Shown here: piece by piece, positions 54,528-58,927 of the stretch
Position numbering within the stretch: position 1 is the first letter of the stretch
Layout: the number at the start of each line of letters is the position of its first letter
Assembly: GCF_022808865.1 (NCBI RefSeq)
Contig: NZ_JAKZLB010000003.1
Span: forward strand, 191,875 to 255,874
Origin: Geothrix oryzisoli
GTDB taxonomy: Bacteria > Acidobacteriota > Holophagae > Holophagales > Holophagaceae
DNA: 64,000 nt
Reading direction: 5' to 3'
Made by a program: the position numbers and the translations under genes
The notes under the pieces: model-generated
What the model was told of the DNA's origin: nothing
Database searches by the model: none
What the model saw: the letters and a program-made list of their open reading frames with translations, nothing else

Positions 54528-55035
54528 GGCCGGCCTCCTTCCGGCTCGGGCGGCCGCGCTCCTCGAAGAACATCGGGGGCGGCTCCGAGCTCGGGGGCGC
54601 CAGGGCCTCTAGCAGGCCCGCGAGTTGGAGCAGCTCGTTCGCCTGCAGCGCCGCCATCCGCCGGACGAGGGTGTCCTGCACCGGCGGCGGAGCCTCCTGG
54701 AGCAGCCCGCGCCCTTCCGGGGAGAGGCTGATCTCCAGCCGGCGGCGGTCGTGGCCCGCGACCGCCTTCACCACCAGCTGCTTCTCCTCCAGCTTGCGGA
54801 CCACCACCGAGACGGAGCTTTGATCGGTGAAGGTGGCGTCGGCGAGCTCGCCCAGGGACAGCCGCCCGTCCTTCCCAAGGACATGGAGGACGAAGACCTG
54901 GGCGCTGCTCAGGCCATGGTGCTTCCCGGTGGCGGCGGAGGCGAGCCGCAGCTCGCGCACGATGGACCGGAGGGCATCCAGGACGCGCCGGACCGTGGGG
55001 TCGGAGTCGAAGAGATTATTTGGGATCCCATTCAT
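54514..55035 (-). CDS. MarR-family transcriptional regulator
   Basis: 173 aa. Winged helix-turn-helix: AQVFVLHVLGKDGRLSLGEL, recognition helix ATFTDQSSVSVVVRKLEEK and wing VVKAVAGHDRRRLEISLSPEG, with dimerisation helices at both ends. A Pro/Arg-rich tail of about 25 residues follows. As first gene of the marR-ClC-UbiA operon it likely autoregulates and controls the channel in response to a small ligand. No operator palindrome was found with confidence upstream. Confidence 0.88.
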   Translation of the reverse strand: MNGIPNNLFDSDPTVRRVLDALRSIVRELRLASAATGKHHGLSSAQVFVLHVLGKDGRLSLGELADATFTDQSSVSVVVRKLEEKQLVVKAVAGHDRRRLEISLSPEGRGLLQEAPPPVQDTLVRRMAALQANELLQLAGLLEALAPPSSEPPPMFFEERGRPSRKEAGHGPV

Positions 55036-55101
55036 TTATGCAGCATAGCTTTCTCCCGGCCGGTCGGCAAGGCTCGGCCAGGTGCCACTGTTCCGGCCCG
55101 G

Positions 55102-55500
55102 TCAGTCCGGGAAGGCTGCCACGCAGAGGGGGGTGCGCTCCTGGCGGCGGCGCTCGGTGATGCGGTTGTGCTCATCCACGAAGACCACCTTCGGGGCCAC
55201 CGTCTCCGCTTCCTCGGCGGTCATCCAGCCGTAGGCGGCGATGATCACCAGGTCGCCCTTCTGGACCAGGTGGGCGGCGGCGCCGTTGATGCCGACCTCG
55301 CCCGAGCCCGGCACGCCCGGAATCACATAGGTGGACAGGCGCGAACCGTTGGTCACGTCGTAGATGTCGATCTTCTCGTTCTCCATGAAGCCGGCGGCCT
55401 CAATGAGCAACGGATCGAGCGTGATCGATCCCACGTAGTCCAGATCGGCCCTCGTCACGGTGGCGCGATGGATCTTACCGAGCAGGAAGTGGCGCAGCAT
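55102..55500 (-). CDS. panD: Aspartate 1-decarboxylase
   Basis: 132 aa from ATG 55500, fixed by GGAGG just upstream; the frame is open 25 codons further without support. It makes beta-alanine from aspartate. The pro-enzyme self-cleaves before serine in DYVGSITLD (Gly-Ser, residues 24-25), generating the pyruvoyl cofactor. Also present are [24 protein letters not shown] and the active-site Tyr/Lys region ([15 protein letters not shown]). The C-terminus is a few residues longer than in E. coli. Confidence 0.95.
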
Positions 55501-55548
55501 GCATCCTCCGGTCCAGGCTCCCGTCGGAGTCCCGGCCAACGCATAAGA

Positions 55549-55575
55549 ATGGACCCAGGTGTACCCCGGGTCCAT
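55549..55575. terminator. Hairpin between small secreted protein gene and panD
   Basis: Perfect 8-bp arms ATGGACCC (55549-55556) and GGGTCCAT (55568-55575). On the plus strand a T5 run follows at 55582-55586; on the minus strand, in the direction of the genes, only TCTTAT follows. It may act as a weak terminator or RNA processing site ahead of panD. Confidence 0.4.
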
Positions 55576-55603
55576 CCTCGATTTTTACCTGGTCGGGCAG
55601 GGC

Positions 55604-56149
55604 TCAGTTGAACAGCACCACGTGGAGGTTCAGGCCGAGCCTGGGCGGGGCCACGGGGGGCGGCGCCATGGGCAGCTGGAACGCGCCCTCCAAGTCCAGA
55701 CGGGCCCGGGGGTCGCGGACCTGGCGCAGCACCCAGCGCCCCTCCAGGAATACATAGCAGCGGGAGGGGTCGCCGGGGACCAGGGCCACGTAGCGGCGCG
55801 TGTCGCCGGGACGCCAGTAGCCGTCCATCCAGGCCGGGGCGCGGTAGTGCCGCGGCCGGTCCCGGTCCCGGTCATCGTCGTCGTAGTAGCGGTGGCGCTC
55901 GTATTTGCGGGCTTCCTTGTCCCTTTCCTTCCAGTACTTGCGCTCGGCCTTGTCGCGCTCCTGCCAGTACTTCCGATCCTCGCGGCGGTCGTCACGACGG
56001 TCATCGCGCCTGTCCTCGCGTCGATCCTCCCGACGGTCCTCCCGCTCCCCGTAGCGGCCCCGGCGCTCATCGTCGGGGCGGGCGGCGGCAGGCAGGGCCG
56101 GCAGGAGGAAGGCGGCCAGCAGGGCGGCACTCAGGATACGGCGGTTCAT
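55604..56149 (-). CDS. Secreted Arg/Asp-repeat protein, paralogue of next gene
   Basis: 181 aa. A clear signal peptide (ILSAALLAAFLLPALPAAA) is followed by about 70 residues of highly charged repeats (EDRREDRREDRRDDRRDD, then KYWQERDKAERKYWKERDKE), which should form a long charged helix. A globular C-terminal half (YVALVPGDPSRCYVFLEGRW) ends in LGLNLHVVLFN. That ending and the preceding xGRWxLR segment recur in the neighbouring gene. Function unknown; probably periplasmic or cell-surface. Confidence 0.75.
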   Translation of the reverse strand: MNRRILSAALLAAFLLPALPAAARPDDERRGRYGEREDRREDRREDRRDDRRDDRREDRKYWQERDKAERKYWKERDKEARKYERHRYYDDDDRDRDRPRHYRAPAWMDGYWRPGDTRRYVALVPGDPSRCYVFLEGRWVLRQVRDPRARLDLEGAFQLPMAPPPVAPPRLGLNLHVVLFN

Positions 56150-56163
56150 GGAGCCTCCTCAGT

Positions 56164-56544
56164 TCAGTTGAACAGCACCACGTGGAGGTCCACGCCGATG
56201 CGGGGCAGGGGCACCGGCGGCGGCACGGGGGCCAGCCGCAGGGTGTCGCGGACATCGGCCTGGAGGCCGATGTTGAACCCCTTGCGGAGCTCCCAGCGGC
56301 CATCGATCAGGAAGTAGGCGCGGTCGGTGTAGCGGGGATCGACCGCGATGTAGGGACGCTCGGGAACCCGGGGGCCGAACTTCTTCGCGAGGCCGGGGGG
56401 GAGGCCGCCCTTCTTGGCCAGGCCGGGCGGCACGCCATCGCCCCCGCGGGCATGTCCCGGAGGGCCGCCGCGGTCCCCCTTGTCATGGCCACGCCCCTGG
56501 GGCATGGCGAGAAGGGCGGCGGAAATCAGGATCGGGACGAGCAT
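56164..56544 (-). CDS. Small secreted protein ending in LHVVLFN, unknown function
   Basis: 126 aa from ATG 56544, with GGGAGG five bases upstream; the longer frame to 56631 is unsupported. Signal peptide MLVPILISAALLAMPQG, then a Gly/Lys-rich stretch with a duplicated LPPGLAKK-type unit (GVPPGLAKKGGLPPGLAKKF) and a C-terminal domain (YIAVDPRYTDRAYFLIDGRW) ending IGVDLHVVLFN. It shares this C-terminal layout, and the last 25 bases of DNA exactly, with the gene that follows 14 bases downstream. Likely a tandem duplication. Confidence 0.72.
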   Translation of the reverse strand: MLVPILISAALLAMPQGRGHDKGDRGGPPGHARGGDGVPPGLAKKGGLPPGLAKKFGPRVPERPYIAVDPRYTDRAYFLIDGRWELRKGFNIGLQADVRDTLRLAPVPPPVPLPRIGVDLHVVLFN

Positions 56545-56683
56545 GGAACCTCCCGGGATGGGCCCGCGGTGACTGGACGGACGGGACCCAGCCATTCTAA
56601 CCCTGCGAGGGAGGGAGCACCCTCCACCCATGGGAGGAGGCTCTCCTAGTCCGAAGGGTGGGGCCGTTCGCCGGAAACCCGGC

Positions 56684-57571
56684 TCAGGCGCCCTGGCCTC
56701 CGCCGGTCCCGATTCCGTTCGGCGCGGGAGACAGGAGCACGTTGTCGATGAGGCGGGTGCTGCCCACGTAGGCGGCCACGCACAGGGCGACCGTGCGGTC
56801 CACCGGGCCCTGCAGCGGCTCCAGGGTCTGGGCGTCCACCAGCTCCAGGTACTGGATCGAATCCGCCCCGGTCATGTGCGAACGCGCCAGGGCCACCAGC
56901 TTGGCGGGCGCCGCTTCCCCCTCCTCGAAGGCCGCCTTCGCGGCCAGCAGGCCCTGGCTGAGGGTCAGGGCCCGCTGCCGGGCCTCCTCGTCCAGGTAGG
57001 TGTTGCGGCTGCTCAGGGCCAGGCCGTCCGCCTCGCGCACCGTGGGCACCACCACCACGTCCACGGGCAGGTTCAGGTCGCGGGCCATGCGGCGGATCAC
57101 CGCCGTCTGCTGGAAGTCCTTCTGGCCGAAGAAGGCCAAGTCCGGCTGCACGATGTTGAAGAGCTTCGCCACCACGGTGGCCACGCCCCGGAAGTGGCCG
57201 GGCCGGTAGCGGCCGCAGAGCGTGTCGGCCAGGTGGCCGGGCTCCACATGGGTCTGGAAACCCGTGGGGTAGATTTCGGCCACCTCCGGGAGGAACAGCA
57301 CCGTGGCGCCGGTCTCCAGGCAGAGGTTCTGGTCCCGCTCCAGGTCCCGCGGGTAGCTGGCCAGGTCCTCGCCGGGGCCGAACTGGTTCGGATTCACGAA
57401 GATGGACACCACCGTGGCATCGCAGCGCGCGGCGCTCTGACGGATGAGGGCCCCGTGGCCCTCATGCAGAAAACCCATGGTGGGGACGAAGCCGATGCGC
57501 TTGCCCTCATCCCGGAGGGGCCTCAGAAGCGCGCGGAGATCAGCAATGGTACGAACGACTCGCATGGACAA
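56684..57571 (-). CDS. panC: Pantothenate synthetase
   Basis: 295 aa from TTG 57571, which has GAAGGA eight bases upstream; ATG 57565 is an alternative. ATP-dependent ligase joining pantoate and beta-alanine. HIGH-type nucleotide-binding motif GFVPTMGFLHEGHGALI, then SIFVNPNQFGPGEDLASYPR, FFGQKDFQQTAVI, PTVREADGLALSSRN and the KMSKS-like SSRNTYL. Located after panB (46-base gap) on the same strand. Confidence 0.96.
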   Translation of the reverse strand: MSMRVVRTIADLRALLRPLRDEGKRIGFVPTMGFLHEGHGALIRQSAARCDATVVSIFVNPNQFGPGEDLASYPRDLERDQNLCLETGATVLFLPEVAEIYPTGFQTHVEPGHLADTLCGRYRPGHFRGVATVVAKLFNIVQPDLAFFGQKDFQQTAVIRRMARDLNLPVDVVVVPTVREADGLALSSRNTYLDEEARQRALTLSQGLLAAKAAFEEGEAAPAKLVALARSHMTGADSIQYLELVDAQTLEPLQGPVDRTVALCVAAYVGSTRLIDNVLLSPAPNGIGTGGGQGA

Positions 57572-57617
57572 AAGCGGGATCCTTCAAATATCGCCTGCCA
57601 GTCTACCAAGGGCGCGA

Positions 57618-58481
57618 TCAGGGATGCCACTGGGTCAGGACCGGACGAACGGCTTCTGGAAGGGTATAGGATTCCCGGCCATCGGGGAACCCTCCCGACC
57701 GCACATCCCCGGCCCAGGTCGCCAGGGCATCACGCAGGTCTTGGAATCCTTCGGCATAGCGCCGCACGAATTTCGGCGAGGAACCCGGCAGCAGGCCCAG
57801 CACATCGTGGAAGACCAGCACCTGGCCCGCGCACTGGGGGCCGGCCCCGATGCCGATGGTGGGAATCTCGAGGGTCTCCGTCACCTTGGCGGCCAGGTCG
57901 GCGGGGATGCCCTCCAGCACCAGGCTGAAGCAGCCGGCGTCCTGCAGCTTCTGGGCGTCCTCCAGCAGGCGGATGGCGTCGCCCTTGTGCTTGCCCTGCA
58001 CCTTGAAGCCGCCCATGGGGTTCACGCTCTGGGGGGTGAGCCCCAGGTGGCCCATGACGGGGATCTCGGCGTCGATCAGGGCATGGATCATGGGCAGGCG
58101 CTTGGCCCCGCCCTCGAGTTTGACGGCCTGGGCCCCGCGCCGGAGGAAGCCCCCGGCGTTCCGCAGGGTGTCCTCCACGCTGAGGTGGAAGCTCAGGTAG
58201 GGCAGGTCGGCCACCAGCATGGCCGTGGGCTGGGTGCGAGCCACGGCCTCCAGGTGGTGGTTCATCATGGCCATGCTGACGGGCAGGGTGTTCTCGAAGC
58301 CCAGGCACACATTTCCCACGCTGTCGCCCACCAGGATCAGGTCCACGCCCGCCGCATCCGCGATGCGGGCCGTCGCGGCATCGTAGGCCGTGACCATCAC
58401 GAGCTTCCGTCCCGCGTGGTGCCAGGCGTGCAGCTGGGGGAGGGTGACGCGGGGGCGCGCGTCCGCAGGCAGGTGGCTCAT
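57618..58481 (-). CDS. panB: 3-methyl-2-oxobutanoate hydroxymethyltransferase
   Basis: 287 aa. It adds a hydroxymethyl group from methylene-THF to ketoisovalerate, the first step to pantoate. TIM-barrel landmarks: VTAYDAATARIADAAGVDLI, VGDSVGNVCLG (metal ligand Asp), VADLPYLSF, AVKLEGG, PVMGHLGLTPQSVN, LVLEGIPADLAAKVT and IGIGAGPQCAGQVLVFHD. Leads the panB-panC group; panD lies further downstream after two unrelated small genes. panE is not in the window. Confidence 0.96.
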   Translation of the reverse strand: MSHLPADARPRVTLPQLHAWHHAGRKLVMVTAYDAATARIADAAGVDLILVGDSVGNVCLGFENTLPVSMAMMNHHLEAVARTQPTAMLVADLPYLSFHLSVEDTLRNAGGFLRRGAQAVKLEGGAKRLPMIHALIDAEIPVMGHLGLTPQSVNPMGGFKVQGKHKGDAIRLLEDAQKLQDAGCFSLVLEGIPADLAAKVTETLEIPTIGIGAGPQCAGQVLVFHDVLGLLPGSSPKFVRRYAEGFQDLRDALATWAGDVRSGGFPDGRESYTLPEAVRPVLTQWHP

Positions 58482-58927
58482 GGGGTCTCCGCTGGAAGGT
58501 CGAAGCCGTGGGTCTCCATGAAACCACCAAACAGTGGGAAAAGGACGAGTTGGATTTTCATTTCTAAGGTGTCGTCCTCGTCACGCCGATCCGGTGTCTG
58601 AAAGCCCAATTGGGCGAGGCCAGGGTATCGGAGCCTGGGGAGTTTTCTGTTTGTAATGAGAGGATATAAATGCCTAGTGATTGATTCAAGTGGTTAAAAA
58701 TAAATGATATAGAAATATATTTTCCCATGTGTTTTCCAATGGAACTCCGGGTGTATTGAAGGTGCGGTGTTTAACCATTCCGAATGGTTGCGACTTTGGT
58801 CGGAGCGGGCCGAATCCTGTCTTTTCACACCGGTGCCCTCAGTGACCTGACCCAGAGCAGCAACCTCGCCGGATGGATGGAATGGGCCGTCCGACGCAAG
58901 CCTCAACCCACTCTTTACGGGAATGGA
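58482..58927. other. Divergent intergenic region panB / wza
   Basis: 446 bases, A/T-rich between about 58640 and 58790. A possible promoter toward wza is TTGATT at 58682-58687 with TGATAT about 18 bases later. The 17-bp palindrome is listed separately. Upstream in-frame codons of wza (from 58784) are present but lack a ribosome binding site. Confidence 0.45.
58773..58789. promoter_or_regulatory. 17-bp palindrome upstream of wza, possible operator
   Basis: AACCATTC-C-GAATGGTT: perfect 8-bp arms around one base. It lies about 85 bases after the promoter-like TTGATT and 139 bases before the wza start chosen here. Size and symmetry fit a homodimeric regulator site; the binding protein is unknown. 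Confidence 0.45.

Follow-up and report, generated by a model that had tools for sequence, protein, structure and literature searches.

Two adjacent small genes, here called A and B, encode members of a real and conserved protein family of Acidobacteriota which had not been described, and which is predicted from its N-terminal sequences to be exported. They lie in the window, that is, the whole 64,000-nucleotide stretch of Geothrix oryzisoli DNA analysed here, and both end in a domain that is absent from current libraries. They define a modest new protein family, not a new vitamin B5 pathway, and no known picture is overturned. The genes, their neighbours and a possible promoter element are as follows.

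55604-56149, minus strand: gene A (181 aa), an ORF conserved over 19 sequences, combining a charged Arg/Asp/Glu linker with the common C-terminal domain; putative exported protein
56164-56544, minus strand: gene B (126 aa), an ORF conserved over 17 sequences and under purifying selection, in which two PPGLAKK units precede the common C-terminal domain; putative exported protein
56684-57571, minus strand: panC, upstream neighbour (PF02569, E 2.7e-106; TIGR00018)
55102-55500, minus strand: panD, downstream neighbour (PF02261, E 2.2e-47; TIGR00223)
56594-56599, minus strand: −10-like TAGAAT before B, by consensus resemblance only

Both reading frames are found where a preliminary description of this DNA had placed them, flanked by panC and panD on the minus strand. 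The neighbours panC, panB and panD were confirmed with Pfam and NCBIfam, as were a MarR-type regulator and a ClC channel past panD. The start of B is the ATG located behind a GGGAGG Shine-Dalgarno-like sequence, the program-made ORF list beginning this gene upstream at 56631; the true start of panD is most likely at 55500, as set by conserved protein sequence (11 letters). The gaps are 139 bp between panC and B, 14 bp between B and A, and 103 bp between A and the likely panD start. Ribosome-binding sequences of the GGAGG type precede both A and B, and 10 of 17 sequences have TAGAATG ahead of B. Judging from the sequence, the pair is probably transcribed from its own promoter. A sigma-70 promoter scan of positions 55000-58700 found none, which makes read-through from panBC possible.

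The common part of the two proteins corresponds to their C-terminal domains.

56167-56364, minus strand: C-terminal domain of B, residues 61-126 (BLASTP, B alignment, model, phylum-wide alignment, hhalign)
55607-55837, minus strand: C-terminal domain of A, residues 105-181 (AlphaFold2 block-mean pLDDT 81-92 over residues 101-181; BLASTP; hhalign)

This domain is about 65-75 residues long and ends in LHVVLFN in both proteins. The sequences of A and B are identical at 27 of 64 residues (42%, BLASTP E 4e-8 for the pair), and the profile-profile comparison by hhalign gives a probability of 99.2 and an E-value of 1e-19 over 73 columns. In a tree of the domain comprising 48 rows, a branch with 100/100 support separates the A sequences from all others, and the proteins of other Acidobacteriota families group with B, not with A. 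Such separate clades point to an old duplication, and the duplicated family with a common C-terminal ending, as initially proposed, is thus well supported. Since the tree has 70 columns only and a midpoint root, the direction of the A/B split is one that we infer: B, which is the more widely distributed, is taken as the ancestral form, and A is probably a Holophagaceae paralogue of it.

The predicted structure of A (AlphaFold2) shows a charged helix at residues 37-82, followed by strands at 119-123, 130-135 and 138-143, a helix at 147-156 and a last strand at 176-180, with the block-mean pLDDT values of 81-92 given above for the domain. The model of B has the same order of elements at lower confidence (mean 56.8). 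According to these models, LHVVLFN probably closes the domain as its last strand and is not a sorting tail. The ending had been suspected not to belong to a known domain, and indeed no Pfam or NCBIfam model matches A or B at E ≤ 1, nor does any PHROG at E ≤ 0.1 (no family for each of four proteins searched). The other family members scanned gave no Pfam or NCBIfam match over cut-off either, and the fold searches gave nothing usable: none of the 219 Foldseek matches to the A model, folded at full length and not as the domain alone, reached E ≤ 0.001, and the best VIA-align match (Z 5.2) covers only the long helix, the rows touching the domain having Z < 3. Among PDB sequences, the only matches have E-values of 0.12-0.69 and none is convincing.

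Alternatively, the domain could belong, as a divergent member, to a known class of repeats or folds, for instance WXXGXW (PF12779), and have been missed because of shallow depth. Like A, the proteins of this class are small and carry W-x-x-G-x-W motifs, which WMDGYW and FLEGRW of A fit or nearly fit, and PF12779 was touched by five of the 19 A proteins at E ≤ 1 (best E 0.0019). However, a rescan of ten A proteins, from which the best-scoring member was absent, gave a single match of 13.9 bits, under the cut-off of 18; no B protein matched; there was no structural match; and the A/B domain adds a conserved helix and a C-terminal strand outside the motif. We consider this relationship unlikely, while leaving it some weight. 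The VHL beta domain (PF01847) showed a weak overlap of about 40 residues with nine of the 19 A proteins, which is taken as chance: the best score among ten rescanned A proteins was 18.1 bits, below the 21-bit cut-off, and the A protein of the window had no match. The PPGLAKK-like segments, signal peptide and small C-terminal beta-rich part also resemble the organization of periplasmic proteins of the RcnB/CigR type, in which a signal peptide, Pro-Gly-Leu-Ala-Lys repeats and a small beta-rich C-terminal part are likewise combined. No Pfam or NCBIfam family of this type matched A, B or the 11 B-type members scanned at E ≤ 1, and the literature search returned no paper naming both RcnB and CigR. 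Carriage by phages or plasmids was also considered and rejected: no relative was found in IMG/VR, where 23 stretches matched the search pattern and none was confirmed, and neither B nor its repeat segment had a match in PLSDB.

The two genes also share their last bases.

55604-55629, minus strand: last 26 bases of A, the same as those of B; coincidence of codons
56164-56189, minus strand: last 26 bases of B, the same as those of A; coincidence of codons

The identical run noted earlier is real, although it extends over 26 bases and not 25. Its reading as a sign of recent duplication does not hold. In the ten genomes with both genes, the mean difference between A and B over the last 21 bases is 2.8 within a genome and 2.5 between genomes, and a permutation test over the last 21, 24, 27 and 45 bases gives P(≤) of 0.95-0.98, the within-genome pairs being no closer than the between-genome ones. 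Gene conversion or recent duplication was rejected on this basis. The identity thus results from conserved residues and codon choice, and is peculiar to this genome.

The N-terminal parts of the two proteins are different, being rich in Arg, Asp and Glu in A and carrying two PPGLAKK units in B, as had been observed at the outset.

56503-56544, minus strand: signal-peptide-like N-terminus of B, residues 1-14; hydrophobic, judged by eye
56371-56430, minus strand: most constrained segment of B, residues 39-58, PPGLAKKGGLPPGLAKKFGP; pN/pS 0.09, kept in the phylum-wide alignment
56081-56149, minus strand: signal-peptide-like N-terminus of A, residues 1-23; ends in ALPAAA, judged by eye, without lipobox cysteine
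55838-56077, minus strand: charged linker of A, residues 25-104; 55-85 residues long, modelled helix 37-82, DNA tandem repeats

Protein B consists of a hydrophobic start, a short variable part, the segment PPGLAKKGGLPPGLAKK and the domain. In A, the signal-like start is followed by the Arg/Asp/Glu-rich stretch, WMDGYWR and the domain. The suggestion that both proteins are exported agrees with their N-termini, which by eye look like signal peptides. That of the window B is weak, with no positive charge in its n-region, and the B proteins of other families have clearer ones by the same inspection; a lipobox pattern was not found in A. Selection acts quite differently along the two proteins, as seen from pN/pS values pooled over 17 B and 19 A sequences. 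For B, the ratio is 0.09 in the PPGLAKK segment, 0.27 in the domain and 0.55 in the signal and variable part; for A, it is 0.29 in the domain, 0.47 in the linker and 0.85 in the signal. Among the 19 sequences the length of the A linker varies between 55 and 85 residues, and its DNA contains tandem repeats of 12 bp and 36 bp. The notion of fast-evolving linkers is therefore appropriate for A but not for B, where the PPGLAKK part is the slowest and is kept in other families. Two easy misreadings are corrected here: the identical ends do not reflect a recent duplication, and the low-complexity repeats are the slowest part of the protein, not a fast one. No paper with PPGLAKK was found in the literature search, and this sharply conserved module is a possible handle for the study of the Acidobacteriota envelope. 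Between families of the phylum, B-type proteins differ in how many PPGLAKK-like units they carry, from two to four (L196, L197, L201).

Close relatives of A and/or B were found in 26 of 60 genomes in a first search, and a profile of both domains then matched 36 of 77 Holophagaceae genomes. The window genus accounts for most of these, with the family present in 32 of its 47 genomes (16 with both genes, 15 with A only and one with B only). The other genera contribute four of 30, namely G076, G084 and G087 with B, and G077 with two sets of A and B, this last genome being the only one of the 77 to have A outside the window genus. The order of A and B is conserved among Holophagaceae genomes. Geothrix fermentans DSM 14018 (L068) is among the bacteria that have the two genes. 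In a phylum sample of 396 genomes, the profile of both domains matched 29 and the B profile 27; the B profile also matched three of 41 genomes in the class of G201 and seven of 148 in that of G298. Nine genomes outside Holophagaceae are convincing (G201, G224, G298, G445, G521, G523, G524, G540 and G541), since their B-type proteins combine the domain with a signal-like start and two to four PPGLAKK-like units. The weak profile matches in G189, G236, G166 and G279 are reading frames lacking the A/B architecture and look like chance. The B core of G201, G298 and G224 (76-92 residues) is 64-70% identical to the window B, and their panC proteins are 48-53% identical to the window panC; either constraint or horizontal transfer would explain why the B core is the closer of the two. 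The B-type protein of G298 diverges from the family near its C-terminus, perhaps through a frameshift. A scan of 84,980 named genomes with an A-type query yielded 85 pattern matches, of which 30 were confirmed, giving 29 loci that all belong to Geothrix, Holophagaceae or Acidobacteria; the 55 unconfirmed matches could include distant B-type relatives, and many of the 29 loci are the same contigs as in the genomes searched by profile, so that the two sets are not independent.

Given its restricted occurrence, A might be viewed as a lineage-specific and weakly constrained by-product of little function, a domain remnant whose linker arose by repeat slippage. The length variation and tandem repeats of the linker fit such an origin, as do the many genomes without A and its absence from all other genera except for G077. 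However, the pN/pS of the A domain is as low as 0.29 and many of its residues do not vary in the 19 sequences, and the 15 genomes of the genus with A alone show that it is kept without B. A by-product of this kind appears quite improbable.

The preliminary description proposed to check whether the pair is always close to pan genes. This is true of all 36 Holophagaceae genomes with A or B, which have a neighbouring pan gene. In 35 of them panC is upstream on the same contig, the contig of the remaining one (G063) ending there; panD is the next gene in 33, lies 1.8 kb off in G026 and 3.2 kb off in G012, and falls past the contig end in G027. Outside this family it is not: the 5-16 kb around the nine B loci of other families, searched at E ≤ 1e-3, contained none of panB, panC and panD. 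Conversely, among the 15 genomes of the genus that lack A and B, the distance from panC to panD is below about 140 bp in G005, G011, G019, G028, G034 and G064, and 0.7-4.8 kb in G004, G013, G015 and G071; panD was not found in G031, G033, G035, G065 and G072. For G072, which is 97% complete, the protein search found neither panC nor panD. Other inserts occur at the same junction, where toxin-antitoxin-like gene pairs were seen in two related genomes (L162:1901-2491 and L079:4843-5600): in G071 a Gp49-like gene accompanies one for an addiction-module antidote, and in G022 the partner of a PIN-domain gene is DUF6364-like (under cut-off). Together with the nine B loci devoid of pan genes, these inserts indicate that the linkage is the habit of one family and that the junction is a variable spot, at which A and B look like passengers.

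The alternative would be that A and B function within the pantothenate operon, perhaps as partners, exported or membrane-associated, that sense or handle beta-alanine, aspartate or pantothenate. The unbroken Holophagaceae linkage, with all genes in the same direction, speaks in its favour; it is not required of a pure passenger and counts against the passenger view. On the other hand, besides the loci of other families, at least six genomes of the genus have panC and panD with neither A nor B between them, no catalytic-looking conserved set is seen beyond structural W, G, P and R, and the signal-like N-termini would put A and B outside the cytoplasm, where PanB, PanC and PanD act. Such a role in pantothenate synthesis is unlikely from the genomic context, and we regard it as decidedly improbable.

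The explanation that we prefer, with a confidence evenly poised between right and wrong, is that the A/B paralogues are small envelope proteins, probably exported by Sec, in which the common domain is anchored or spaced by different N-termini, and which are passengers without a role in pantothenate synthesis. The envelope assignment is drawn from the signal-like N-termini, the lack of a lipobox and of any enzyme signature, and the strong conservation of structural residues. Both proteins would be retained in the periplasm or at the envelope, where the domain would bind a partner. Judging from composition, the positively charged and flexible PPGLAKK repeats of B may hold the domain to an anionic polymer (LPS or cell wall), and the charged helix of A may be a spacer; in A, this long helix and the WMxGYWR motif would replace the PPGLAKK part. 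The B-A pair would then be a two-gene cassette inserted at the variable panC-panD spot. A more elaborate scheme, to which we attach very little probability, would make A and B the two halves of an envelope system, a basic PPGLAKK anchor and a charged-helix spacer, which would bind one another, or the same partner, across the periplasm and which in Holophagaceae would be tied to the pan locus through expression coupled to coenzyme A demand.

The region between A and panD contains a conserved RNA-like structure and an element resembling a promoter.

55510-55537, minus strand: hairpin of the panD leader, bulged at two A residues, adjoining the panD ribosome-binding site (alignment, folding, covariation)
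55546-55574, minus strand: promoter-like TGGACC-17-CATTCT between A and panD, conserved among panD leaders and missed by the sigma-70 scan

This leader is found between A (or panC) and panD. All Holophagaceae leaders examined except that of G096 consist of GGCCGGGAC, a short variable stem and GCCTGGACC, followed by the ribosome-binding site, a few variants having one base changed and two having a long loop. The promoter-like TGGAC-N17-CATNCT lies upstream of the hairpin, and its position suggests that the panD transcript is likely to start at the hairpin. The presence of these conserved upstream signals belonging to panD itself counts for a separate A/B cassette. In 39 unique hairpins, 98.1% of the cells pair, and both bulged A columns are invariant in the aligned leaders, the two bulges being also present in the minimum-energy folds. 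Three pairs show two-sided changes, amounting to 13 cells (mean of 2.7 after shuffling, none of 500 as high), and the covariation score is 0.113 versus 0.059 (0/500), which is reduced by sliding; this covariation is located in the upper stem, seven pairs that never vary carrying no such information. A model of the hairpin gave 25 strong matches (E ≤ 2.6e-6) in 297 genomes of the phylum, all directly before panD and all in Holophagaceae. Of the matches weaker than E 7e-4 outside this family, the five loci inspected (L228-L232) have no pan gene within their 3 kb, and such matches were dismissed as chance.

The hairpin resembles the pan RNA motif (RF01749) by the two bulged A residues in its stem and its place before a pan gene, a comparison that draws on PMC2864571. 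It differs in being single, whereas the pan motif is usually tandem, and in being missed by the Rfam model: none of 12 genomes exceeded the 36.2-bit cut-off of RF01749, the window genome had no match at E ≤ 10, and Rfam scans of the window stretch gave chance-level matches only. The panD hairpin is nevertheless a probable single-hairpin leader of the pan type, as far as sequence and folding can indicate, and through it the pan RNA motif may reach Acidobacteriota in this single-hairpin form. In another Acidobacteriota family, RF01749 matched below threshold (27.2 bits, E 0.026) before panB, at G298:C30:16881-16964.
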